Shown one piece after another: positions 35,774-45,093 of a DNA stretch of 64,000 nucleotides. The notes beneath the pieces are model-generated. The model was not told the DNA's origin, searched no databases, and saw only the letters and a program-made list of their open reading frames with translations. This stretch comes from Nocardia sp. BSTN01. Its GTDB lineage: Bacteria; Actinomycetota; Actinomycetes; Mycobacteriales; Mycobacteriaceae. Position 1 is the stretch's first letter. Every line of letters starts with the position of its first letter. The stretch lies in assembly GCF_015354405.1 (NCBI RefSeq), contig NZ_JADKYP010000040.1, positions 1 to 64,000 of the forward strand, in the 5' to 3' direction. A program made the position numbers and the translations under genes.

Positions 35774-36310
35774 ATGTCTGACTCCGCGATCCCCCCCGTC
35801 GACGCGGCGCCCTCCCGGGCGCAGTTGTTGCGGGTGCTCTACGACGAGCACGCACCGACGCTGTGGCGCTTCACCTACAGCCTGGTCGGCGATGCCGGGC
35901 GCGCCGAGGACATCGTGCAGGAGACACTGTTGCGGGCATGGCAGCGGCCGCAGGTCCTCGACCAGTCGACGGCGTCGGCGCGGGCGTGGCTGTTCACCGT
36001 GGCCCGGCATCTCGCGGTCGACGAATTTCGCAGTGCGCGGCATCGACGCGAGTACGGCACCGACACACCGCCCGAACAGACGGCTCCGGATGAGGCGGAA
36101 CGCGCAGTGGACAGTTGGGTGATCACCGACGCGCTGGCTCGGCTGAGCTCCGATCACCGGGAGGTGATCGTGCGGGCCTACTATCGCGGATTGTCGACAC
36201 AGCAGATAGCGAACGAATTGGCGATACCCGAGGGCACCGTCAAATCCCGGATGCACTACGGGATGCGAGCGTTGCGTTCGGCCCTACAGGAGATGGGGGT
36301 GACGAAATGA
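35774..36310 (+). CDS. ECF sigma factor, SigL-like
   Basis: A 178-aa group IV sigma factor. Region 2 is LYDEHAPTLWRFTYSLVGDAGRAEDIVQETLLRAWQ and ends ARAWLFTVARHLAVDEFRSARHRRE; region 4 is LARLSSDHREVIVRAYYRGLSTQQIANELAIPEGTVKSRMHYGMRALRSAL. The downstream anti-sigma gene overlaps by ATGA, as in sigL-rslA of mycobacteria. SigL-type factors control envelope and protein-modification genes under redox or surface stress. ATG 35774 is preferred; an ATG at 35717 would add 19 residues with no homology. Confidence 0.92.
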   Translation: MSDSAIPPVDAAPSRAQLLRVLYDEHAPTLWRFTYSLVGDAGRAEDIVQETLLRAWQRPQVLDQSTASARAWLFTVARHLAVDEFRSARHRREYGTDTPPEQTAPDEAERAVDSWVITDALARLSSDHREVIVRAYYRGLSTQQIANELAIPEGTVKSRMHYGMRALRSALQEMGVTK

Positions 36311-37224
36311 CGGCCGACACCGCGTCACACGACGACTACGCGACCTGGGACGCACCGTATCTGCTCGGCGCCCTCGACCGCGACCAGCGGCTCGAATACG
36401 AGGCGCATCTGTCCGGCTGCGACGAATGCCGGCTCGCCGTCGCGGACCTGTCGGGGCTGCCGGGACTGCTCAGCCACGTACCCGAGGACGTCGCCCTCGC
36501 GCTGCTCGACGACGAGTCCGCCGCCGACCATGCCGGCAGTGTCGGCGACGCCGGCTTCGAGGCCCTGCTGAACCGGGTGCGCGCGAGCGAGGCGACCACC
36601 GACGGCGCCGGGATGCTGCCCTTCGAATCGCATCCCGATACCGGCCGGGCCGCCGAATCCGGAGGAGCCGAGCCGGACAAGACCGCGGGCACGCCGACGG
36701 TCCGCGAAACGCCCTCGGAAACCGGCCGCACGGAGCCGGGGGAAGCCCCCGCCTCCCTGGCCGACGCGCGCGAGCGCAAGGGCAGCCGTAGCGGTCCGTG
36801 GCTCGCCCTGGCCGGTGCGGTCGCCGCCGCCGCGGCCGCGGTCGCCATCACCATCCCGATCACCGTCGCCCACACCGAGCACAACAACAATCCGCCCACC
36901 GCCGAGCAGGTGGTGACGGAGCGGCAGATGGATCAGGTGATCCCCTCTCCGATCACCGCGAATTTCACTCTGACGCAACTGCGTTCCGGCACGCGCGTGA
37001 ACATGTCGTGCAACTACGCGCCCTCGGATACGGATTACACCTGGGACGGCGCCCTGTGGGTGGTGCACACCGACGGCACGCAGTCGATGGTGGCGCAGTG
37101 GACGGCACATCCCGGGCAGACGATCACCGCGGACGGCATCACATCTGCCCCGTCGGATCAGATCAGGTCGGTCGAAATCCGTTCGACCACAACGAATCAG
37201 GTGTTCCTGCGCGGAACGGTGTGA
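36307..37224 (+). CDS. Zinc-finger anti-sigma factor, RslA-like
   Basis: A 305-aa single-pass membrane protein. The N-terminal anti-sigma domain carries the H-x3-C-x2-C zinc motif (EAHLSGCDECRLAVADLSGLPGLL), a Pro/Glu-rich linker follows, then one helix (WLALAGAVAAAAAAVAITIPITVA) and an extracytoplasmic beta-rich domain (MSCNYAPSDTDYTWDGALWVV). It is expected to hold the SigL-like factor inactive until a surface or redox signal. The overlap ATGA couples it to the sigma gene. The external domain is well conserved in this family. Confidence 0.92.
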   Translation: MTADTASHDDYATWDAPYLLGALDRDQRLEYEAHLSGCDECRLAVADLSGLPGLLSHVPEDVALALLDDESAADHAGSVGDAGFEALLNRVRASEATTDGAGMLPFESHPDTGRAAESGGAEPDKTAGTPTVRETPSETGRTEPGEAPASLADARERKGSRSGPWLALAGAVAAAAAAVAITIPITVAHTEHNNNPPTAEQVVTERQMDQVIPSPITANFTLTQLRSGTRVNMSCNYAPSDTDYTWDGALWVVHTDGTQSMVAQWTAHPGQTITADGITSAPSDQIRSVEIRSTTTNQVFLRGTV

Positions 37225-37234
37225 GCACCCGCCC

Positions 37235-37534
37235 TCAGCCGGTCCGCCGGGAATCGAGGTCGCCCTCCACCGCGGTTTCGCCGGCGATATCGGATTTCCA
37301 TCGCCGTGCGGCCCGCCGCAATGCCCGCGCGTCCGAATATCCGAGCCGATACGCCAGTGCGGATTGGGTCGTCGTCTCGGCGACGCTGCCGGCGACGGAC
37401 CGCCGCGCCAGATCGAGTTCCCGCCGCCAGGTCGTACCGGATTCCGCGAGCCGGCGCTGCAGTGTTCGCGGGCTCACGGCGAGCCTGGTCAGCGACGAAG
37501 CGGGCTGGGTCTCGGGGCAGACCGTGCGGGCCAA
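37235..37534 (-). pseudogene. AraC-family regulator remnant (DNA-binding end only)
   Basis: A 99-codon frame with the AraC C-terminal pattern: LTRLAVSPRTLQRRLAESGTTWRRELDLARRSVAGSV, then a weakened second helix-turn-helix (SALAYRLGYSDARALRRAARRWKSD). The usual 200-residue N-terminal ligand domain is absent; upstream the frame reaches the in-frame TGA that ends the DUF1772 gene. It is read as the surviving 3' end of an AraC gene truncated when the DUF1772 gene arrived. A short DNA-binding product remains possible. Confidence 0.65.
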
Positions 37535-37564: not shown

Positions 37565-38041
37565 TCACAGCAGGGCGAGGGTGGTGCACAGGGCGGCGAG
37601 GGCGAGGGCCTGCAGGCCGACCCGGTAGCCCAGGATGCTCTCCCACTTGTCCTGCAGCGCACGGGCGTCGGCGGGGATGACGCCGGTCATCGCCGCCTGG
37701 GTCTGCGCGGTGTTGATCGGCTTGGCGATTCGTGCGTACAGGCCGAGCCAGGAGAGCAGTGCCAGCAACGCGATCCCGGCGGCCACCGCGGCGCCCGTGG
37801 CTCCCGCGACGGCCGCGACGACGACGGCGAGCACGGTGCTGATCACACCGCCCGCACCGGCGAACGGCATCCGCCGGTCGCCGTAGTAGTGCCCCCATCC
37901 GGCCGAGACGGTCATCGTCGCGTCGTCGAGTTTGGCGTAGACGGGCCGGAAGATGAGGGTGGCGGCGACGTCGGTGCCGTAGACGATGGCGTTGGTGAGA
38001 ACGGCCAGCACGGCGAGAACCTGGGCGGATGTGGTCAGCAT
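37565..38041 (-). CDS. DUF1772 membrane protein (anthrone-oxygenase-like)
   Basis: A 158-aa four-helix membrane protein (LAVLAVLTNAIVYGTDVAATLIFRPVY..., GVISTVLAVVVAAVAGATGAAVAAGIALLALLSWLGLY). Members occur in quinone and polyketide oxidation and as stress-induced membrane proteins; the role here is unknown. ATG 38041 follows AGGAG. Its promoter (TAGACA, 17-base spacer, TACTGT) is bracketed by two identical palindromes, so it is tightly regulated, yet no regulator gene is adjacent. Confidence 0.8.
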   Translation of the reverse strand: MLTTSAQVLAVLAVLTNAIVYGTDVAATLIFRPVYAKLDDATMTVSAGWGHYYGDRRMPFAGAGGVISTVLAVVVAAVAGATGAAVAAGIALLALLSWLGLYARIAKPINTAQTQAAMTGVIPADARALQDKWESILGYRVGLQALALAALCTTLALL

Positions 38042-38062
38042 GAGAAGACTCCTAGTCATCAT

Positions 38063-38125
38063 CTAGCGTTGCTAGCTTCTATGGCAACAGTAGATGGAGA
38101 TGACTAGCTTGTCTAGCGTTGCTAG
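38063..38125 (-). promoter_or_regulatory. DUF1772 promoter with paired operators
   Basis: CTAGCGTTGCTAG occurs exactly at 38063-38075 and at 38113-38125, 50 bp (about five helical turns) apart. On the minus strand the upstream copy overlaps a -35 (TAGACA), a -10 TACTGT follows after 17 bases, and the second copy lies in the leader. Half-sites CTAG also occur at about 38052 and 38104. Confidence 0.65.
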
Positions 38126-38130
38126 AAAAT

Positions 38131-39183
38131 TTACCGTCCCGCCCCTACCGGGTAAGCGGCGCACCGATCCCCGGCGGCCTGCCCGGACGGTGGGCGTAGG
38201 CGCGGCACCGGCTCGGCATGGCCGTCGAAGGCGTGCAGCACCGCGGCATCGGCACGCGGATCGCCGACCGCGATCCGCGCACTGCCGTCGGGATACCCCT
38301 TGGCCGCGATCCCCGCACCCGCCAGCGTCGCGTGCGCCGCGGGCCCCGGCAGATAGAGAAAGTTGCCACGGCTGCACGGCACCGCGAAACCCCTGTGCCG
38401 CAGTGCCGTTCGCAGCGCCTCCCGCTCGGCGGTGATATCGGCGACTCGCTCGGCGAGCTCGGCCGACGCGGCATAGCAGGCCCGCACGGCCGCGACGGCA
38501 TACTCGGGCATCCCGAACGGAAGTTGCAGCCGCCGTACCCGTGCCACCAATTCCGGCGCGCCGAAGGCGTACCCGATGCGTAGCCCGGCGAGTCCGTAGG
38601 CCTTCGAAAAGGTCCGCAATACCAGGAGATTGGGATAGCGGGCGATGAGTTCATTGGGGTCGACGGTCTCGGCGTCGGCCAGAAATTCCACATAGGCCTC
38701 GTCCAGGATCACCGGAACATGTCGCGGCACGCCGAACAGGAAGGCCTTCAACTCCGCGGCGGGCGCCACGGTTCCGGTCGGATTGTGCGGGCGGCAGATC
38801 GCGACCAGAGCCGTCCGGTCGTCGACGGCGCGGGCCATCGCCGCCAGCCGCTGCCGTCCGCTCGAATCCAGCGGCACCGCGACGACTTCCAGTCCCGCCA
38901 TGGCGGCCATGATCGGGTAGCCGTCGAAGGTCGGCGTCGCGAACACCATGCGCCGGCCCGGTCCCGTGACCGCCTGCATGATCTGCAGCGCCACCCCCGT
39001 CGCCCCGGCACCGACCACCACCTGATCGGCATCGACGCCGAGATGCGCGGCGATCACCGCGGGCAGCCGCCGGGGCAGGAATTCCGGATACCGGTTGGCG
39101 TCGCGAATCGCCTCGTTCACCACCGCCAGCACGGAAGGCAGTGGCGGAAACGGGTTTTCGCTCAGCGCCAGATCGAATTCCAT
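38131..39183 (-). CDS. HisC-like class I/II aminotransferase, last gene of the unknown operon
   Basis: A 350-aa PLP-dependent aminotransferase resembling histidinol-phosphate aminotransferase. CRPHNPTGTVAP, VILDEAYVEFL and the PLP-lysine site RTFSKAYGLAGLRIGYAFG are clear. Since it lies in a biosynthetic-looking operon away from other his genes, amination of a pathway ketone or aldehyde is more likely than histidine synthesis. Its ATG overlaps the KAS III-like stop (TGATG), so the two are coupled. The C-terminal 30 residues (RLRPPSGQAAGDRCAAYPVGAGR) look unlike the family and may be a later extension. Confidence 0.88.
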   Translation of the reverse strand: MEFDLALSENPFPPLPSVLAVVNEAIRDANRYPEFLPRRLPAVIAAHLGVDADQVVVGAGATGVALQIMQAVTGPGRRMVFATPTFDGYPIMAAMAGLEVVAVPLDSSGRQRLAAMARAVDDRTALVAICRPHNPTGTVAPAAELKAFLFGVPRHVPVILDEAYVEFLADAETVDPNELIARYPNLLVLRTFSKAYGLAGLRIGYAFGAPELVARVRRLQLPFGMPEYAVAAVRACYAASAELAERVADITAEREALRTALRHRGFAVPCSRGNFLYLPGPAAHATLAGAGIAAKGYPDGSARIAVGDPRADAAVLHAFDGHAEPVPRLRPPSGQAAGDRCAAYPVGAGR

Positions 39184-40220
39184 CACGCCGCACCCCAGCG
39201 CACCGCGGCCGCGGCCGCGAAATCCCCGGCATGGGCGAACGCCGCCAGCAGCACCACCGAACCGTTGCGCAACCGACCGGCCCGATTCTCGATATCGAGG
39301 GTCACGGGAATACCCGCGGCGAACAGATTTCCGCACCGATCGAAGGAATCCGGATGGCGTTCGGCGGGCAGTTCCAGCGCATCGTGCCAGTTCCGCAGAA
39401 ACAGCCGATTCGGCTGGTTGGTGACGAAGGTGTCGATATCGCGGCCCTTGACTCCGATGCGGTCGCATACCGCAAGAGCGAGTTCGGGGACCAGCCGGTT
39501 GCCGCGCGCGAAGACCTTCGTCACCTTCGATTCGGTGAAGCTCACGCAGCCCTGGCCCTCGCCGGGCTCCCAGTATTTGCGTTCGGAGCCGGTGGAGAAA
39601 TCCATATCCCCGGCGAATTCCGGAAAGGTACGGCATTGCACGTCGAGGATCGGCGCACGATTGTCCTTGACTAGCAGTCCCACTCCGCACCCGTCACCCG
39701 GCACCGGCGCCTGCGCGAGTGTGCGAATCTCGGTCTGCGTGAAGACCGGTCCGGCGGTGTTCTGCGTCGTCGCGATCAACGCGGTGCGGGCGTCGGTCGT
39801 CTGCAGAATCATCCGGGCCAGCATCATCATGTGGATGAACGCCGCACAGCCGCCGTTGTGCACATCGAACACCCACTTCGGGTTCATCCCCAGCCGCCGC
39901 GCCACCTCCGGCCCGGCGCCCATGACGGGATTGTCGGGCAGTTGGGTATGGGTGAGCAGCACGTCGATATCGGCGAGCGTGCCGGCGCCGTGCCGTTCGA
40001 TCAACGGCGCGACCGCGCGTTCGACCATATCCACGGCGGTTTCGTCGCGGCCCTTGTGATGGCGGCCGTGCGGTGCGCGGAACATGACGTTCTTCGCCAT
40101 CCGCTCCGAACGCGAGAATTGTGTGAAGTATTCGGTACCTACCGGCTCACCCGGCAGATAGCAGGCCACATCGGCCAGACTGACCGGTGCCAGCCGCAGG
40201 GCGGGGTCGGTGAAATCCAT
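39183..40220 (-). CDS. KAS III-like 3-oxoacyl-ACP synthase homologue with altered catalytic residue
   Basis: A 345-aa thiolase-fold protein. DVLLTHTQLPDNP and VHNGGCAAFIHMM (Cys125 as nucleophile) mark the FabH family, and SFDRCGNLFAAGIPVTLD holds the third catalytic residue Asn298. The histidine of the usual HQAN motif is replaced: the site reads TNQPN with Asn268. This points to acyl transfer, or a condensation with different proton handling, rather than standard fatty-acid initiation. It sits third in a four-gene operon, 12 bp after the SRPBCC-like gene. The acyl substrate is unknown. Confidence 0.85.
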   Translation of the reverse strand: MDFTDPALRLAPVSLADVACYLPGEPVGTEYFTQFSRSERMAKNVMFRAPHGRHHKGRDETAVDMVERAVAPLIERHGAGTLADIDVLLTHTQLPDNPVMGAGPEVARRLGMNPKWVFDVHNGGCAAFIHMMMLARMILQTTDARTALIATTQNTAGPVFTQTEIRTLAQAPVPGDGCGVGLLVKDNRAPILDVQCRTFPEFAGDMDFSTGSERKYWEPGEGQGCVSFTESKVTKVFARGNRLVPELALAVCDRIGVKGRDIDTFVTNQPNRLFLRNWHDALELPAERHPDSFDRCGNLFAAGIPVTLDIENRAGRLRNGSVVLLAAFAHAGDFAAAAAVRWGAA

Positions 40221-40232
40221 CTCGGCGCATCC

Positions 40233-40901
40233 TCACTTCATCCACTCGGGGGTGATCGACAGCCCGTGCGCGGCACGGTATTCGGCGATCGCTTTCAGGT
40301 TGTCCAGTTCCAGCCGGTGTCCGGCGGAGAACATCTCCCAGAAATCACCGACCCAGACCGTGCGGCCCTCCGGGGCCCGGTCGGGATAGGGATTCGCGTC
40401 GTAGAACGGGTGGCGGCAATTGGTCCACAGCACCACCGAACCGGGCTTGTTCAACACCACCTGGGCGTCGACGACGCGCATCAGGTAGATCATCCACAGG
40501 TGTTCACCCTGGTCCCACGCACAGTGGTAATCCACGGTCATCGCATCCGGATTGGCCTCGGTGCGAGTGAAGATCCGGGTGTCCTTGCCCAGCCGGTCGT
40601 AGGATTCCCACAGCCCCGGGGTGGCGGTTTCGGTGAATCCGCGCAGACTGTAGGTCCATTCCTCCAAACTCTGTGTGTGCGAGAGGTATTCGTACAATTC
40701 GCGCGGCGGTGCGGCGATGTAGTCCTGCACCGGGCAGAACTGCCCGAAGACCTGGTCGTGGGGATAGACCGAGCGCAGCATATCCATGATGATCGGAGTG
40801 GTCGTCTCGCGATCGGAATTCTCGATACGCAACAATCCGGGTATGACCCGATGCGGATGGTCGGCGATATCGCTGAGCGCGGGTGCGGTGCTGATAGTCA
40901 C
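40233..40901 (-). CDS. SRPBCC-like operon protein
   Basis: A 222-aa soluble protein. QDYIAAPPRELYEYLSHTQSLEEWTYSLRGFTET and the beta-rich middle (DAMTVDYHCAWDQGEHLWMIYLMRVV) resemble START/SRPBCC lipid- or intermediate-binding folds, such as polyketide cyclases. GTG 40901 is preceded by GAGGAGG and overlaps the upstream ThDP-enzyme stop (GTGA). It could bind, cyclise or protect a hydrophobic intermediate; this is inference. No close characterised relative is recognised. Confidence 0.7.
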   Translation of the reverse strand: MTISTAPALSDIADHPHRVIPGLLRIENSDRETTTPIIMDMLRSVYPHDQVFGQFCPVQDYIAAPPRELYEYLSHTQSLEEWTYSLRGFTETATPGLWESYDRLGKDTRIFTRTEANPDAMTVDYHCAWDQGEHLWMIYLMRVVDAQVVLNKPGSVVLWTNCRHPFYDANPYPDRAPEGRTVWVGDFWEMFSAGHRLELDNLKAIAEYRAAHGLSITPEWMK

Positions 40902-42583
40902 GGATTCCTCCTCGATGCGGACAGGAAGGGGATGAACGGCGGTATCTCGTCCGGATCGCAGTCGATCGAAACGAACGAGGGCCCAGGCGTTTCCAGGCAG
41001 TACGACAGCACGGTCGCGAGCTCGGCCGGCGTCGCCGGCGAGAAGGCGGGCAGATCCGGGAACATCGCCGCCATACCGGCTCCCAGATGCGCCTTGTGGA
41101 ATCTGTTGAAGCTGTAGCGGTCTCCGTAGAACAGTTGCTCGCGGGTCACGCACATGCCGTGCGCGGAATTGTCGAGGACGACGAAGGTCACCGGCAGCGC
41201 GAATTGGATCGCGGTGTGAATTTCCATGCCGTGCATGTAGAAAGCGCCGTCCCCGGCCACGACCACGGTGCGGCGCTCGGTACCGTCGGCGCGGTGGCGG
41301 CGGGCGAAACAGGACCCGATGGCGGCGCCGAAGGCGTAACCCATGCCGCCCATGCCGAGGGCGACGACGAAGCGGCCGTCGCGCGGCGGGCGCAGGTGAT
41401 GGACCACCGAGGCGCCGGTGTTGCCCGCATCGGCGAAGACATCGGTATCGGAATGCACCGCGCCGTTGAGTGTTTCGACGATGTCGCGGTATCGCAGCCC
41501 CGGCCCGTCCGCCGGTGGCACCGGTAGTGGATCCGGCGCCCGGCGCGGCCGCCGCGGTTCCACCCGGTGCACCGGGCCCGCGCCGGTCGTCAGCTCCGAG
41601 GTCAGTTCGCGGAGCGTGGCGGCCAGATCGGTGCTGGTCGCGTGGACCGTGGGCAGGTAGGGCGGCTCGCCGCCGACCGACGCCGTCGACGCGCCGAGTA
41701 CCGACTCCAGACCGGCTCGCGCGGTGACCGGCATCCGGGTGCCGACCAGCAAGCACAGCGCGCAGCCGCGCAGGGCATCGGCCAGTTCCGCATGGCCCAT
41801 ACTTCCGGCGACACCGAGGAAACCGTGTTCGGTGCAGTCGTACACATCCTTGGCGTCCGGTGCGACGCCGACACCGGCGTCGAGAACCGTCGCCAGATCG
41901 CGCAGTTCGCCGCGAGCGTCGTCGCGGGCGACCTGCGCGCCCGCGATGATCACGACCTTGCCCACCGCCCGGGCCGCCCGCAGCCCCTCCAGGAGCCGTT
42001 CGATACCGGCATCGTCGCGCCCGTGCATCGGCCGCGGCGCGACGAACGGCCCGGCGTCGAATTCGGCCTGCTGCACATCCTTCGGCAGGAGCAGAACCGC
42101 CGGACCGCCCGCCCGTGCGGCCGCGACGGCGCGGGACAGATGCGCCGGTAAGGAGGTGGGTGTCTCCACCCGCGCGCAATACAGGGAAATCGTGTCGAAA
42201 AGTTCGGCGGCGTCGAAGGTTCCGGCTCGTCCACTGGAATCCTGAAACGCGCCTCTACCTTCCAGATCGGTCGGCGCCTGGCCCACCAGCGCCAGCACCG
42301 GAATCCGCGAAGCGTGCGATTCCGCCAGTCCGGCAACGAGATTCATCGCGCCGCCCCCGGAGGTCGCGCAGACCACGCCGAGACCCGCGGTGGAGCGGGC
42401 ATATCCGTCGGCCATGGTGGCCGCGGCGAATTCGTGTTTGGCCACCACCGCGGTGACCCGGTCCGCGGCGTCGTAGGCCGCGTCGTAGAGATCTTCGATA
42501 TTGGCGCCGTCGACCCCGAAGATATGTCGTACGCCCATGTCCGATACGGCCTGCACCAGATAGTCGACCACTCGTGTCGGCAT
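40898..42583 (-). CDS. Thiamine-diphosphate-dependent enzyme, acetolactate-synthase-like; first gene of the operon
   Basis: A 561-aa three-domain ThDP enzyme. The N-terminal domain has the activating glutamate E51 (AVVAKHEFAAATMADGYAR) and CATSGGGAMNLVAGLAESHA, a central domain follows, and the C-terminal ThDP motif runs from VVVAGDGAFYMHG to VVLDNSAHGM. This class decarboxylates a 2-oxoacid and joins the resulting carbanion to an acceptor (carboligation) or releases an aldehyde. ATG 42583 follows GGAAGGAG. The context (KAS III-like enzyme, aminotransferase) suggests building an amino-ketone-type scaffold rather than branched-chain amino acids. Confidence 0.88.
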   Translation of the reverse strand: MPTRVVDYLVQAVSDMGVRHIFGVDGANIEDLYDAAYDAADRVTAVVAKHEFAAATMADGYARSTAGLGVVCATSGGGAMNLVAGLAESHASRIPVLALVGQAPTDLEGRGAFQDSSGRAGTFDAAELFDTISLYCARVETPTSLPAHLSRAVAAARAGGPAVLLLPKDVQQAEFDAGPFVAPRPMHGRDDAGIERLLEGLRAARAVGKVVIIAGAQVARDDARGELRDLATVLDAGVGVAPDAKDVYDCTEHGFLGVAGSMGHAELADALRGCALCLLVGTRMPVTARAGLESVLGASTASVGGEPPYLPTVHATSTDLAATLRELTSELTTGAGPVHRVEPRRPRRAPDPLPVPPADGPGLRYRDIVETLNGAVHSDTDVFADAGNTGASVVHHLRPPRDGRFVVALGMGGMGYAFGAAIGSCFARRHRADGTERRTVVVAGDGAFYMHGMEIHTAIQFALPVTFVVLDNSAHGMCVTREQLFYGDRYSFNRFHKAHLGAGMAAMFPDLPAFSPATPAELATVLSYCLETPGPSFVSIDCDPDEIPPFIPFLSASRRNP

Positions 42584-42713
42584 CGCCGCTCCTTCCCGTG
42601 GGGCGGTCCGAAGCCGGCCGCGCTGCCGGACCGAACGCACTCAGCGGGGATACGAAGCACGACCCCGGCCGGTTCACCGCCGCCGCATGCCATCCCGGAA
42701 ACACCCTCTTGCG

Positions 42714-42735
42714 TGTACGTATACATCTACGTACA
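42714..42735 (+). promoter_or_regulatory. Perfect dyad upstream of the EXLDI gene
   Basis: TGTACGTA and TACGTACA are perfect 8-bp arms around TACATC, ending 9 bases before ATG 42745, in the divergent region facing the ThDP-enzyme operon. This is a strong operator candidate for both sides. Confidence 0.65.
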
Positions 42736-42744
42736 GTTGGGGCC

Positions 42745-43260
42745 ATGCCGAACAAGACCGTGTACGTCTCCGATGACGATCTCCCTCTGTTCCAGCGCGC
42801 ACAGGAGCTGGTCGGCGGCAATCTGTCGGGTGCGATCGTGACGGCACTGCGCCGGTACATCGAACTGGAGGAGGGGCGGCTACAGGGATTCGACGAGATC
42901 GTCCTGCGCGTCGGCCACAACGGCGCCCGGCAGGTGCGATTCTCGGGAGTGCTGCTCACCGAGTCGAGCGATATGGGCGACGAGCGTTTCGAGCGCATTC
43001 GCGTATTCCGCACGCGCAAGGGCAAATTCGTGTTGCACCGGCAGCGTTCGGAATGGACCGACTACCCGACCGACACGAACTGGCTGAAGGATCTGACCAA
43101 TTGGCGGCGGATGCTCGGCGTCACCGATCCGGACTGGGGCGAATTCACCATGGACATCTACGAGTCGCCGGCCGACCTGAAAGGCAGGGTTCCCGACAAG
43201 CTGTACAACCGCATCAGCGATCTGACCGAGCATCCGCAGATCGAGGATCTCGACATCTGA
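42745..43260 (+). CDS. EXLDI-family protein, probable ribbon-helix-helix regulator
   Basis: A 171-aa protein ending IEDLDI, the hallmark that names the EXLDI family. The N-terminus KTVYVSDDDLPLFQRAQELVGGNLSGAIVTALRRYIELEE resembles a ribbon-helix-helix DNA-binding domain. The middle (ERIRVFRTRKGKFVLHRQRSEWTDY) is beta-rich. Members sit beside daunorubicin-type ABC exporters, as here. It probably binds the dyad 10 bases upstream and controls itself, the ABC genes and perhaps the divergent operon. Confidence 0.8.
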   Translation: MPNKTVYVSDDDLPLFQRAQELVGGNLSGAIVTALRRYIELEEGRLQGFDEIVLRVGHNGARQVRFSGVLLTESSDMGDERFERIRVFRTRKGKFVLHRQRSEWTDYPTDTNWLKDLTNWRRMLGVTDPDWGEFTMDIYESPADLKGRVPDKLYNRISDLTEHPQIEDLDI

Positions 43261-43291: not shown

Positions 43292-43393
43292 GCAACATAA
43301 TTCGATATCGACCCACCTTGTCCGCCGGAAAACCCGCGGACACGGCTCGGTCGACGCATGCATTCATCGCTATCTTTATATGAAAGGACGACC

Positions 43394-44332
43394 ATGAGTT
43401 CACCGGCCATCTCGGTCACCGGCCTGCGCAAATCGTTCGCCGACCACGTGGTGCTCGACGGTATCGACCTCGCTGTGCCCGAGGGCAGGATCTTCGCGCT
43501 GCTCGGGCCCAACGGCGCGGGCAAGACCACCACCGTCCACATCCTCGCCACCCTGACCCGGCCCGACGACGGCAGTCTGCGCGTCGGCGGCCACGATCCG
43601 GTCGCCCAACCCGATGCCGTCCGCACCGCCATCGGCGTGACCGGCCAGTTCTCGGCGGTCGACGAACTGCTCACGGGACGCGAGAACCTGCTGCTGATGG
43701 CGGATCTGCACCATCTGCCCCGCGGCGAGGGCCGGCGCATCGCCGACGACCTGCTGGCCCGCTTCGACCTGCGCGACGCCGCCGACAAGGTCGCCGGAAG
43801 CTACTCCGGCGGGATGACGCGCCGGCTCGACCTGGCGATGACACTGGTCGGCGAGCCGCGCATCATCTTCCTCGACGAACCCACGGTGGGCCTGGACCCA
43901 CGCAGCCGGCGCGGAATGTGGGACATCATTCGCGAGCTGGTCGCCGACGGCGTCACTATCTTCCTCACCACCCAATACCTGGAGGAGGCCGACCAGCTCG
44001 CGCACCGGATCGCGGTGCTCGACCACGGCCGGATCGTCGCCGAGGGCACACCCGACGAGCTGAAACGCCTTGTGCCGGGCGGACATATCCGCCTGACCTT
44101 CGGCGACGACGAACAGTTGCGCAGCGCCGCCGGACTACTCGGCGGAACGACCACGGACTCGACGCTGGCGGTGCCGAGCGACGGCGGCGTCGCATCCCTG
44201 CGCGACGTCCTGGACCGGCTCGGCCGCGCACAGATCGAGCCCGAGAGCCTCTCGGTACACACCCCCGATCTCGACGACGTCTTCCTCGCCCTCACCGGCC
44301 ACACCGCACCCGAGAAGGAAACCGCACGATGA
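43394..44332 (+). CDS. DrrA-like ABC exporter ATPase
   Basis: A 312-aa daunorubicin-resistance-type ATPase. Walker A is GPNGAGKTTTVH, the signature is YSGGMTRRLDLAM, Walker B is RIIFLDEPTVGLDP, and the switch region is TTQYLEEADQLAHRIAVLDHG. The C-terminal DrrA extension (HIRLTFGDDEQLRSAA...) is present. It drives export by the permease gene that overlaps it by ATGA. The ATG follows GAAAGGA. The substrate could be a product of the divergent operon, which is inference from position only. Confidence 0.93.
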   Translation: MSSPAISVTGLRKSFADHVVLDGIDLAVPEGRIFALLGPNGAGKTTTVHILATLTRPDDGSLRVGGHDPVAQPDAVRTAIGVTGQFSAVDELLTGRENLLLMADLHHLPRGEGRRIADDLLARFDLRDAADKVAGSYSGGMTRRLDLAMTLVGEPRIIFLDEPTVGLDPRSRRGMWDIIRELVADGVTIFLTTQYLEEADQLAHRIAVLDHGRIVAEGTPDELKRLVPGGHIRLTFGDDEQLRSAAGLLGGTTTDSTLAVPSDGGVASLRDVLDRLGRAQIEPESLSVHTPDLDDVFLALTGHTAPEKETAR

Positions 44333-45093
44333 CCACACACACCCTCGCCGACTCCCGCACCATGTTGCGCCGGAACCTGGTGCACGCCAAGCGATATCCC
44401 GGCATGACGATCAGCATGTTCATCATGCCGCTGGTGATGCTGCTGATGTTCAACTATATCTTCGGCGGCGCGCTGGAGAAGGCCACCGGTGGTAGCTACA
44501 TCGACTATCTGGTTCCCGGCATGATGCTCATCATCCCGGCCTATCTGGTGGTCGGCGTCGCGGTGGCCATCGCGTCGGATATGACCAAGGGCATCGTGAA
44601 CCGGTTCCGGACCATGCCCATGGCACACTCCTCGATCCTCACCGGACAGGTCGCCGGGACCGTGATCCAGGGCGTACTCGGCGTCGGGCTGATGGTCGCG
44701 GTCGCCGTGCTGATCGGCTTCCGGCCCGATGCCACGATCGTGGAGTGGCTGGCCGCCTTCGGCCTGATCATCCTGGTGATCTTCGGATTGGCCTGGCTCG
44801 GAGTGGGTTTCGGGCTGGCCGCCAGAACGCCGGAGGGCGCGAGCAACACCCCCACTCCGCTGATCTTCCTTCCCTTCCTCGGCAGCGGCCTGGCACCCAC
44901 CGACACGATGCCCGCCGGTGTCCGCCAGTTCGCGGAGTACCAGCCCTTCACACCCCTGACCGAAACCCTGCGCGGACTGCTCATGGGCACGGCCATCGGA
45001 GGTAACGGCGTCGTGGCGGTGGCCTGGTGCCTCGGTTTCGCGGTGGTCGGCTACCTGTGGTCGCGCTCGCTGTTCCGCCGCAAGACCAACTGA
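44329..45093 (+). CDS. DrrB-like ABC exporter permease
   Basis: A 254-aa ABC-2 type permease with six helices. DSRTMLRRNLVHAKRYPGMTISMFIMPLVMLLMFNYIFGG is the N-terminal family start; MTKGIVNRFRTMPMAHSSILTGQ and YQPFTPLTETLRGLLMG are conserved. It forms an exporter with the preceding ATPase. A strong hairpin follows the stop. Confidence 0.92.
   Translation: MTTHTLADSRTMLRRNLVHAKRYPGMTISMFIMPLVMLLMFNYIFGGALEKATGGSYIDYLVPGMMLIIPAYLVVGVAVAIASDMTKGIVNRFRTMPMAHSSILTGQVAGTVIQGVLGVGLMVAVAVLIGFRPDATIVEWLAAFGLIILVIFGLAWLGVGFGLAARTPEGASNTPTPLIFLPFLGSGLAPTDTMPAGVRQFAEYQPFTPLTETLRGLLMGTAIGGNGVVAVAWCLGFAVVGYLWSRSLFRRKTN

Follow-up and report, generated by a model that had tools for sequence, protein, structure and literature searches.

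The closest described systems are the bacterial carbazole pathways. In the route to carquinostatin A, as set out in the accessible parts of a review (PMC7466098), CqsB7 provides indole-3-pyruvate, CqsB3 joins pyruvate to it, CqsB1 then attaches a 3-hydroxybutyryl unit, and ring closure falls to CqsB2. Similarly, NzsH of the neocarazostatin pathway couples indole-3-pyruvate with pyruvate, according to the part of the source at hand (PMC9822442), and the chlocarbazomycin cluster (chlCz) includes, in the portion of its description available, an aminotransferase annotated as histidinol-phosphate transaminase and, as its cyclase, an SRPBCC protein, the carbazole synthase (PMC10100901). Other carriers given by the review are S. 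cattleya, Sorangium and Scytonema; the words Nocardia and Mycobacterium are absent from its text (PMC7466098). The present analysis concerns a four-gene operon in a 64,000-nucleotide stretch of Nocardia sp. BSTN01 (contig NZ_JADKYP010000040.1, positions 1 to 64,000; hereafter the window), encoding a thiamine diphosphate (ThDP)-dependent carboligase, an SRPBCC protein, a ketoacyl synthase III (KAS III)-like enzyme and a HisC-like aminotransferase, and lying near genes for a SigL-type sigma factor and its anti-sigma factor. Homology of this operon to the carbazole set is near certain and, judged by its sequences, it stands as sister to the bacterial carbazole-assembly machinery rather than as a carbazole cluster proper.

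A preliminary description of the window, made from its letters alone, had proposed four coupled genes of these families at 38131-42583, and in this it was right; all four lie on the minus strand. Pfam and NCBIfam bear out the families of the ThDP, KAS and aminotransferase genes; neither gives a match for the SRPBCC protein at E 0.001, and that protein's sole match in the PDB at E ≤ 1 is CqsB2 (6ipv, E 1.8e-49). The claimed start/stop couplings are all found in the window, as a GTGA overlap between the ThDP and SRPBCC genes, a 12-base gap between the SRPBCC and KAS genes and a TGATG overlap between the KAS and aminotransferase genes, the mechanical frame of the last opening with GTG at 39186 and its ATG start giving the length entered in Table 1. 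The further statement that no named pathway has this combination does not hold, for the carquinostatin, neocarazostatin and chlocarbazomycin pathways carry all four enzyme types.

The cyclase is 42-45% identical to the cyclases of three carbazole-type loci (L086, L090 and L094 in the numbering of this analysis), that of L086 being identical to CqsB2 over the 194 residues compared. Among the five catalytic residues named by the review, Y144, Y172, H206 and E209 are kept in the window and in all 119 aligned cyclases (one of 120 being too short), and the fifth, E105, is Asp in 109 of those aligned and Glu in 10. The window is among the 109, its Asp being a conservative change, and what the operon encodes is a CqsB2-type cyclase with its catalytic residues. 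These joint counts, like those given below for the KAS residues and for the promoter over all loci, contain duplicates, since the fetched loci (L046-L085) and the named loci (L086-L165) overlap in six identical-cyclase pairs. In trees made by a quick method from chosen subsets, the carbazole-type rows split off with support 100 for the cyclase (38 rows), 100 for the KAS (34 rows) and 98 for the ThDP enzyme (33 rows, with no outside ThDP family among them); Streptomyces, Nostoc, Scytonema and Syntrophus lie on the carbazole-type side, and the clade of the window lies with Gram-negative rows on the other. Overall, the four window proteins are 24-47% identical to those of the carbazole-type loci.

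We regard as moderately probable a route, under SigL control, to a fused catechol or quinone, probably of carbazole type, built by this sister of the carbazole machinery. By analogy with the characterised pathway, from which every chemical step is borrowed, the aminotransferase would produce the 2-oxoacid of an aromatic amino acid, tryptophan being the likeliest; the KAS III-like enzyme would take up an acyl group on its Cys and join it to the decarboxylated intermediate; and the CqsB2-type cyclase would close a new benzene ring and bring in an oxygen from water, so that a catechol results, which could oxidise to the ortho-quinone. The acyl group would probably be a 3-hydroxyacyl unit, drawn presumably from the general fatty-acid pool because no dedicated carrier protein is seen. 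Ring closure to a fused aromatic is likely, and tryptophan is on balance the probable source. The enzyme logic first proposed for the operon is borne out insofar as carboligation, acyl condensation and transamination belong to one conserved gene set; its intermediate-binding protein, however, corresponds in the named pathway to the ring-closing cyclase, and there the aminotransferase comes first, turning tryptophan into indole-3-pyruvate.

The operon is widespread. Its cyclase family occurs in 125 of 151 genomes of the genus and 152 of 401 genomes (16 of 31 genera) of the family to which the strain belongs, in 202 of 297 genomes of a genus taken as Mycobacterium (in its genome G188 the sigma factor shares 99% and mapA 94% identity with the counterparts in Mycobacterium sp. 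BK086, L138) and in 15 of 396 genomes of a phylum-wide sample, one of these being a weak match with stops. A named scan returned 524 cyclase relatives, and neighbourhoods were compared for the best 80 of the 524, ranked by likeness to CqsB2, of which 12 are carbazole-type and 68 are not. Gene order was counted by tblastn, as gene calls missed some genes. On this basis 44 of the 68 show the order ThDP-cyclase-KAS-aminotransferase, all on one strand and no more than 2.6 kb from the cyclase; among the remaining 24, one has all four in another order, 20 lack the aminotransferase there, two lack the ThDP gene and one lacks both, some of the 68 stretches stopping at contig ends. The 68 take in Nocardia, Mycobacterium, Antrihabitans, Segniliparus, Streptomyces and Actinoplanes; seven members belong to Planctomycetota, Pseudomonadota, Bdellovibrionota and one uncultured deltaproteobacterium; five of the seven have the order cyclase-KAS-ThDP and two, both Bdellovibrionota, ThDP-cyclase-KAS. 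All four genes stand together in each of 22 fetched Nocardia loci (L064-L085), hand-picked for spread from the 125 cyclase-bearing genomes. Co-occurrence of the four families in this order, which had been put forward as a check, thus reaches far beyond this strain, at about 50% identity and across several genera, and this exceeds what chance would be expected to give; unrelated neighbours brought together by chance are rejected as an explanation in view of the maintenance of order and identity. In the open-licence part of PubMed Central, no paper describing such an operon in Nocardia or Mycobacterium turned up.

The ThDP enzyme, of the CqsB3/NzsH lineage and encoded beside the cyclase, is 35-37% identical (246-260 bits) to those of L086, L090 and L094; the literature on BbmA and CsmA, its nearest relatives in the PDB, offered nothing that helped. 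The aminotransferase is by homology of the HisC type and may supply an aryl pyruvate. In a 31-row tree, operon and carbazole-cluster rows fall outside a branch holding the HisC2 rows (support 99), and the HisC2 rows branch separately save for one long HisC1 row; given this position the enzyme is not taken for an ordinary HisC or HisC2, although long HisC1 and outgroup rows make the root uncertain. These observations bear on the strongest competing explanation, an unlikely one to our minds, in which the same annulation takes phenylpyruvate or 4-hydroxyphenylpyruvate instead of indole-3-pyruvate and yields a naphthalene-type catechol or quinone and no carbazole. The best PDB match of the aminotransferase, 4r2n, is a 'putative phenylalanine aminotransferase', the ThDP identities are modest, and in the tree the carbazole aminotransferases are not the sister group of the window's. 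Yet the aminotransferase is nearer to those of the carbazole loci L086 and L090 (45-47% identity, these two only) than to its nearest paralogue in its own genome (41%), the HisC2 rows keep to their separate branch with the single exception just given, and the catalytic residues of the indole enzyme are kept in the cyclase.

It is the KAS III-like enzyme that sets the window's lineage apart. Its catalytic Cys and Asn are kept, and the His of the HQPN/HQAN motif is replaced by Asn, an assignment with which an alignment to two KAS III enzymes of the PDB agrees. Among 120 KAS sequences, 106, the window's included, have this Asn and 11 have His; two too short (L058, L095) and one with neither motif (L052) were set aside. 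All 11 His-bearing sequences come from carbazole-type loci, and none of the 106 does. The window's enzyme is 24-25% identical (110-123 bits by blastp) to the KAS enzymes of L086, L090 and L094 and scores at most 60 bits against any PDB chain by phmmer, whose bits are only roughly comparable. Because a KAS III-like enzyme with Cys-His-Asn was sought and Cys-Asn-Asn was found, the operon is classed as sister to the carbazole set instead of belonging to it. Likewise, no second KAS was detected in the 64-kb window by tblastn with the KAS as query, and one simple carrier-protein pattern gave three hits in the window, of which none lies close to the operon or looks by eye like a carrier, so that counterparts of CqsB6 and CqsB5, a dedicated carrier protein and a second KAS III, were not found. 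The preliminary description had named close homologues in a known pathway as a result that would count against it; this is half the case, for homologues exist, but they are distant and one catalytic residue is changed.

A His-less KAS invites the thought that this enzyme forms no carbon-carbon bond at all and acylates the acyloin oxygen, leading to an acylated acyloin or a differently closed ring. In its favour, Cys-Asn-Asn is found in 106 of 117 readable KAS sequences and in no carbazole-type one, and the available text of the review records that the unstable KAS product of the known pathway turns spontaneously into esters (PMC7466098). Nevertheless, we consider it improbable, since in every one of the 68 named loci in the window's clade the KAS gene has, on its own strand and at most 2.6 kb away, a gene for a cyclase that keeps its catalytic residues, which indicates ring closure.

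The window's sigma gene lies about 1.8 kb past the end of the aminotransferase gene. When a mycobacterial sigma gene adjoining the operon is compared with this genome, the window's gene is its best match by a wide margin (61% identity and 197 bits, the next at 64 bits), and on that comparison it is the SigL orthologue, with a gene for a zinc-associated anti-sigma factor beside it. RslA is a zinc protein whose oxidation makes SigL binding 8-fold less tight, as given in the part of the report consulted (PMC2877774). Before the operon, 93 bases upstream of the ThDP start codon, begins TGAACC-N16-CGTATC, found once in the window against 0.03 matches expected and three times in the 7.79-Mb genome, the other two lying within open frames whose translations resemble, in our reading, a peptide synthetase in one case and a DNA ligase in the other. 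The TGAACC we take to be the SigL -35 element. It also precedes sigL itself in five of 51 loci (L054, L057, L058, L130, L138), which supports this assignment, and no TGAACC-type promoter was found upstream of the window's own sigL.

The candidate promoter is conserved. It is present in 22 of 22 of the hand-picked Nocardia loci (L064-L085), always with 16 spacer bases of variable sequence, and in 11 of 14 named Nocardia loci with a gene of the EXLDI family, the other three having CGTAGT instead of CGTATC; at the four named Nocardia loci without EXLDI, which are second copies, it was not found. More broadly, the strict pattern stands at 44 of 51 loci with a SigL gene in the stretch versus 5 of 63 without, those five being Nocardia, and a looser pattern occurs in 58 of 114 upstream regions versus 2% of random windows. 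SigL control of the operon is strongly predicted: the sigma factor, released from its zinc anti-sigma factor under oxidative stress, would start transcription of the four genes.

Table 1. Features of the window around the operon (aa, amino acids).
Feature	Position	Strand	Basis
ThDP-dependent carboligase, CqsB3/NzsH-type	40898..42583	-	561 aa; Pfam TPP_enzyme N/M/C; ThDP motifs and GAFQDSSG
SRPBCC/Bet v1-type cyclase, CqsB2/NzsI homologue	40233..40901	-	222 aa; PDB 6ipv CqsB2
KAS III-like condensing enzyme, CqsB1/NzsJ counterpart	39183..40220	-	345 aa; Pfam ACP_syn_III_C; Cys-Asn-Asn
HisC-like aminotransferase, CqsB7/NzsD counterpart	38131..39183	-	350 aa from ATG; Pfam Aminotran_1_2
Predicted SigL-type promoter, TGAACC-N16-CGTATC	42649..42676	-	Sole window match; conservation in Nocardia
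SigL-type sigma factor of the extracytoplasmic function (ECF) class	35774..36310	+	PDB SigL 6dv9, E=4.9e-60; orthologue by best match
RslA-like zinc-associated anti-sigma factor	36307..37224	+	PDB 3hug_B (RslA), E=4.2e-15; HLSGCDEC = HxxxCxxC
Perfect dyad TGTACGTA-N6-TACGTACA	42714..42735	.	Probable operator, before EXLDI gene
EXLDI-family protein, probable regulator	42745..43260	+	TIGR04342, E=6.7e-33
DrrA-type ATP-binding cassette (ABC) exporter ATPase	43358..44332	+	TIGR01188 drrA above cut-off, scanned from 43370
DrrB-type ABC exporter membrane protein	44329..45093	+	Pfam ABC2_membrane; NCBIfam DrrB models below cut-offs

Several observations weigh against a SigL-controlled carbazole-type route. 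The residue that the KAS has lost is the catalytic His of the carbazole KAS enzymes and of FabH, and the identity to the carbazole ones is low; the operon includes no prenyltransferase, carrier protein or oxygenase; the full gene order is lacking in the 24 named loci detailed above; and searches of the open-licence literature brought up no metabolite of these genes. In the aminotransferase tree, a branch with support 86 puts three Streptomyces operon rows and the carbazole rows together on its HisC2 side, so that the tree does not show a common origin of the window's aminotransferase with CqsB7, and the window's group is separated from the carbazole-cluster enzymes, subject to the rooting. The strict promoter was not found at seven of the 51 SigL-bearing loci (L056, L059, L124, L129, L150, L157 and L163), of which L124, L157 and L163 have CGTAGT where others have CGTATC. 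Lin et al. 2019 report, in the portion seen, that the -10 preference is strongest for G at position -11 (PMC6372665); 21 of 23 Nocardia rows have A there, so that the -35/-10 pair before the operon is SigL-type with A where G is preferred, and several mycobacterial loci have G. Finally, since the targets of SigL in M. tuberculosis are other genes, the sigma linkage may lack function. Our estimate came down a little on account of the aminotransferase tree and of the loci where the strict promoter is missing, and the SigL-controlled, probably carbazole-type route remains the one that we favour.

The suggestion that the operon sits where synteny with M. tuberculosis breaks has its mycobacterial counterpart: in 12 of 18 named Mycobacterium loci, the operon is preceded by genes for an ECF sigma factor and a zf-HC2 anti-sigma factor and followed directly by a MarR gene, so that the operon stands between sigL-rslA and MarR. 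Eleven of the 12 also show mapA, and other genes are inserted in several. L118, L140, L147 and L164 have their MarR gene 8-10 kb upstream, with nothing but an anti-sigma-like gene adjoining; in the stretches of L108 and L131 no MarR gene was seen. In M. tuberculosis, according to the available part of one report, the MarR gene rv0737 is immediately downstream of sigL-rslA, and the position of its orthologue varies among mycobacteria (PMC13002591). On the same partial text the operon would be absent from that place in M. tuberculosis, and this state would represent loss, not gain elsewhere, because the operon is SigL-linked in Nocardia as well. More speculatively, and with the balance tilted against it, a founding role of the SigL-RslA redox switch in Mycobacteriales might have been to turn on a four-enzyme pathway to a redox-active carbazole-type quinone with a new His-less KAS III, M. 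tuberculosis having kept and rewired the switch.

Some mycobacterial copies have further neighbours. Flavoprotein genes (flavin monooxygenase (FMO)-like, FAD_binding_4 and FAD_binding_3) stand beside the operon in L108, L110, L118, L164 and other Mycobacterium loci, and some copies adjoin an O-methyltransferase gene as well, these calls resting on a scan of one representative of each protein cluster. Such genes likely tailor the product in mycobacteria and would suit an oxygenated aromatic. In three 3.2-3.3-Mb genomes of the inferred Mycobacterium genus (G942, G974, G952), two to four weak matches each may be decaying copies, and the cyclase of G436 (L042/L060), with an in-frame stop, may likewise belong to a copy in decay.

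Across the intergenic stretch from the operon, the regulator-plus-exporter locus of the preliminary description proves to be an EXLDI protein and a DrrA/DrrB-type ABC pair. The dyad described with it is real and perfect; that it is shared with the operon is unsupported. It ends 9 bases upstream of the EXLDI ATG, where the promoter of that gene would lie, and a separate candidate promoter serves the operon; on these grounds a shared operator is rejected. The dyad pattern plus one base has no second match in the 64 kb at up to three mismatches and none in 100 shuffles, and its core RTATACRTCTACRTA precedes EXLDI in 35 of 35 loci, three of which are the same locus fetched twice. EXLDI, DrrA and DrrB are present in 21, 18 and 19 of the 22 fetched Nocardia loci, and EXLDI and DrrA in 14 and 13 of 18 named ones. 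In the predicted model of the EXLDI protein (mean predicted local distance difference test score 74.8), a pair of helices at the N-terminus stands apart from a beta domain, an architecture that might be that of a ribbon-helix-helix DNA binder joined to a sensing domain; a literature search on EXLDI found nothing relevant. We infer that DrrAB would pump the product out and that the EXLDI regulator, perhaps through such sensing, would control the DrrAB operon via the dyad. A housekeeping or catabolic role with no diffusible product, which near-core presence in Nocardia and the absence of tailoring genes from the four-gene operon might suggest, is very improbable in view of the patchy distribution in the inferred Mycobacterium genus, the extra copies with other ligase, transport and tailoring genes, and the linkage of the exporter to the operon in Nocardia.

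Beyond the other end of the operon, a gene for a small protein (158 aa, no Pfam match; 37565-38130) follows the aminotransferase, as it does in 10 fetched loci, and two copies of CTAGCGTTGCTAG between the two genes (38063 and 38113) look operator-like. A 99-aa frame at 37235-37534 reads like the C-terminal DNA-binding half of an AraC-type regulator and is possibly a remnant.

Related loci vary the theme. Second operon copies in Nocardia (L046, L050, L103 = L048, L139) have genes for a MarR-type regulator, an AMP-dependent ligase and a major facilitator superfamily transporter nearby, families taken from scanned representatives, which suggests a second, different product; in a further Nocardia copy (L051) the cyclase gene precedes the ThDP gene, with the KAS and aminotransferase genes on the opposite strand, 6-7 kb away. 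Two Streptantibioticus clusters (L137:11904-18305 and L151) contain ThDP, cyclase and KAS genes, the former, the only one scanned for them, also encoding AurF-type oxygenase, tRNA-synthetase-like, short 86-aa and reductase-like proteins; these are apparently a richer, different pathway on the shared core. In a Nostoc carbazole-type locus, a Glu/Leu/Phe/Val-type dehydrogenase gene directly before the ThDP gene (L092:5684-6733) perhaps replaces the aminotransferase function; in scytonemin biosynthesis a dehydrogenase of this type does the aminotransferase's job.

The operon points to a metabolite encoded by most Nocardia and many Mycobacterium genomes, and if the tentative proposal on the origin of the switch were true, the quinone would be a protective pigment, a respiratory shuttle or an antibiotic whose pathway is near-universal in Nocardia and common in mycobacteria. 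SigL, a redox-linked mycobacterial sigma factor, would gain a specific and possibly ancestral target. Likewise, a rare family of cofactor-free carbazole synthases grows from the few carriers of the 2020 review to 524 relatives in one scan, and comes with a condensing enzyme of differing catalytic residues.

Among known systems, the prodigiosin pyrrole branch, the analogy first drawn for the operon, combines ThDP carboligation by PigD with transamination by the pyridoxal phosphate (PLP) enzyme PigE, the transamination following the carboligation. It has neither an SRPBCC cyclase nor a KAS III of the window's type, so that the likeness is analogy only, and a prodigiosin-like logic is rejected for the window, where cyclase and KAS indicate carbazole assembly. 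The SigL-RslA unit of M. tuberculosis is shared in that the window's sigma and anti-sigma factors match the SigL and RslA structures, a TGAACC-N16-CGT promoter is present and a MarR gene lies past the operon in the same 12 mycobacterial loci; it differs in that rv0737 directly follows sigL-rslA with no operon between, on the partial source cited above, whereas in the window the pair adjoins the operon with neither mapA nor a MarR gene seen. Neocarazostatin A (nzs) and chlocarbazomycin (chlCz) have all four functions in common with the window's operon, and their clusters include tailoring genes and a carrier protein, none of which is part of it. In the pathway to carquinostatin A (cqsB, Streptomyces exfoliatus), CqsB7, CqsB3, CqsB1 and CqsB2 each have a counterpart in the operon, and four of the five catalytic residues of CqsB2 are identical in its cyclase. 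The operon differs from that pathway in several respects: the window's order is ThDP-cyclase-KAS-aminotransferase, as against KAS-cyclase-ThDP with the aminotransferase about 5 kb off in L086-L090; its KAS has Asn for His, and protein identity is 24-47% overall; no adjoining carrier protein, second KAS III or prenyltransferase is seen; and the operon has a SigL-type promoter and EXLDI/DrrAB neighbours.

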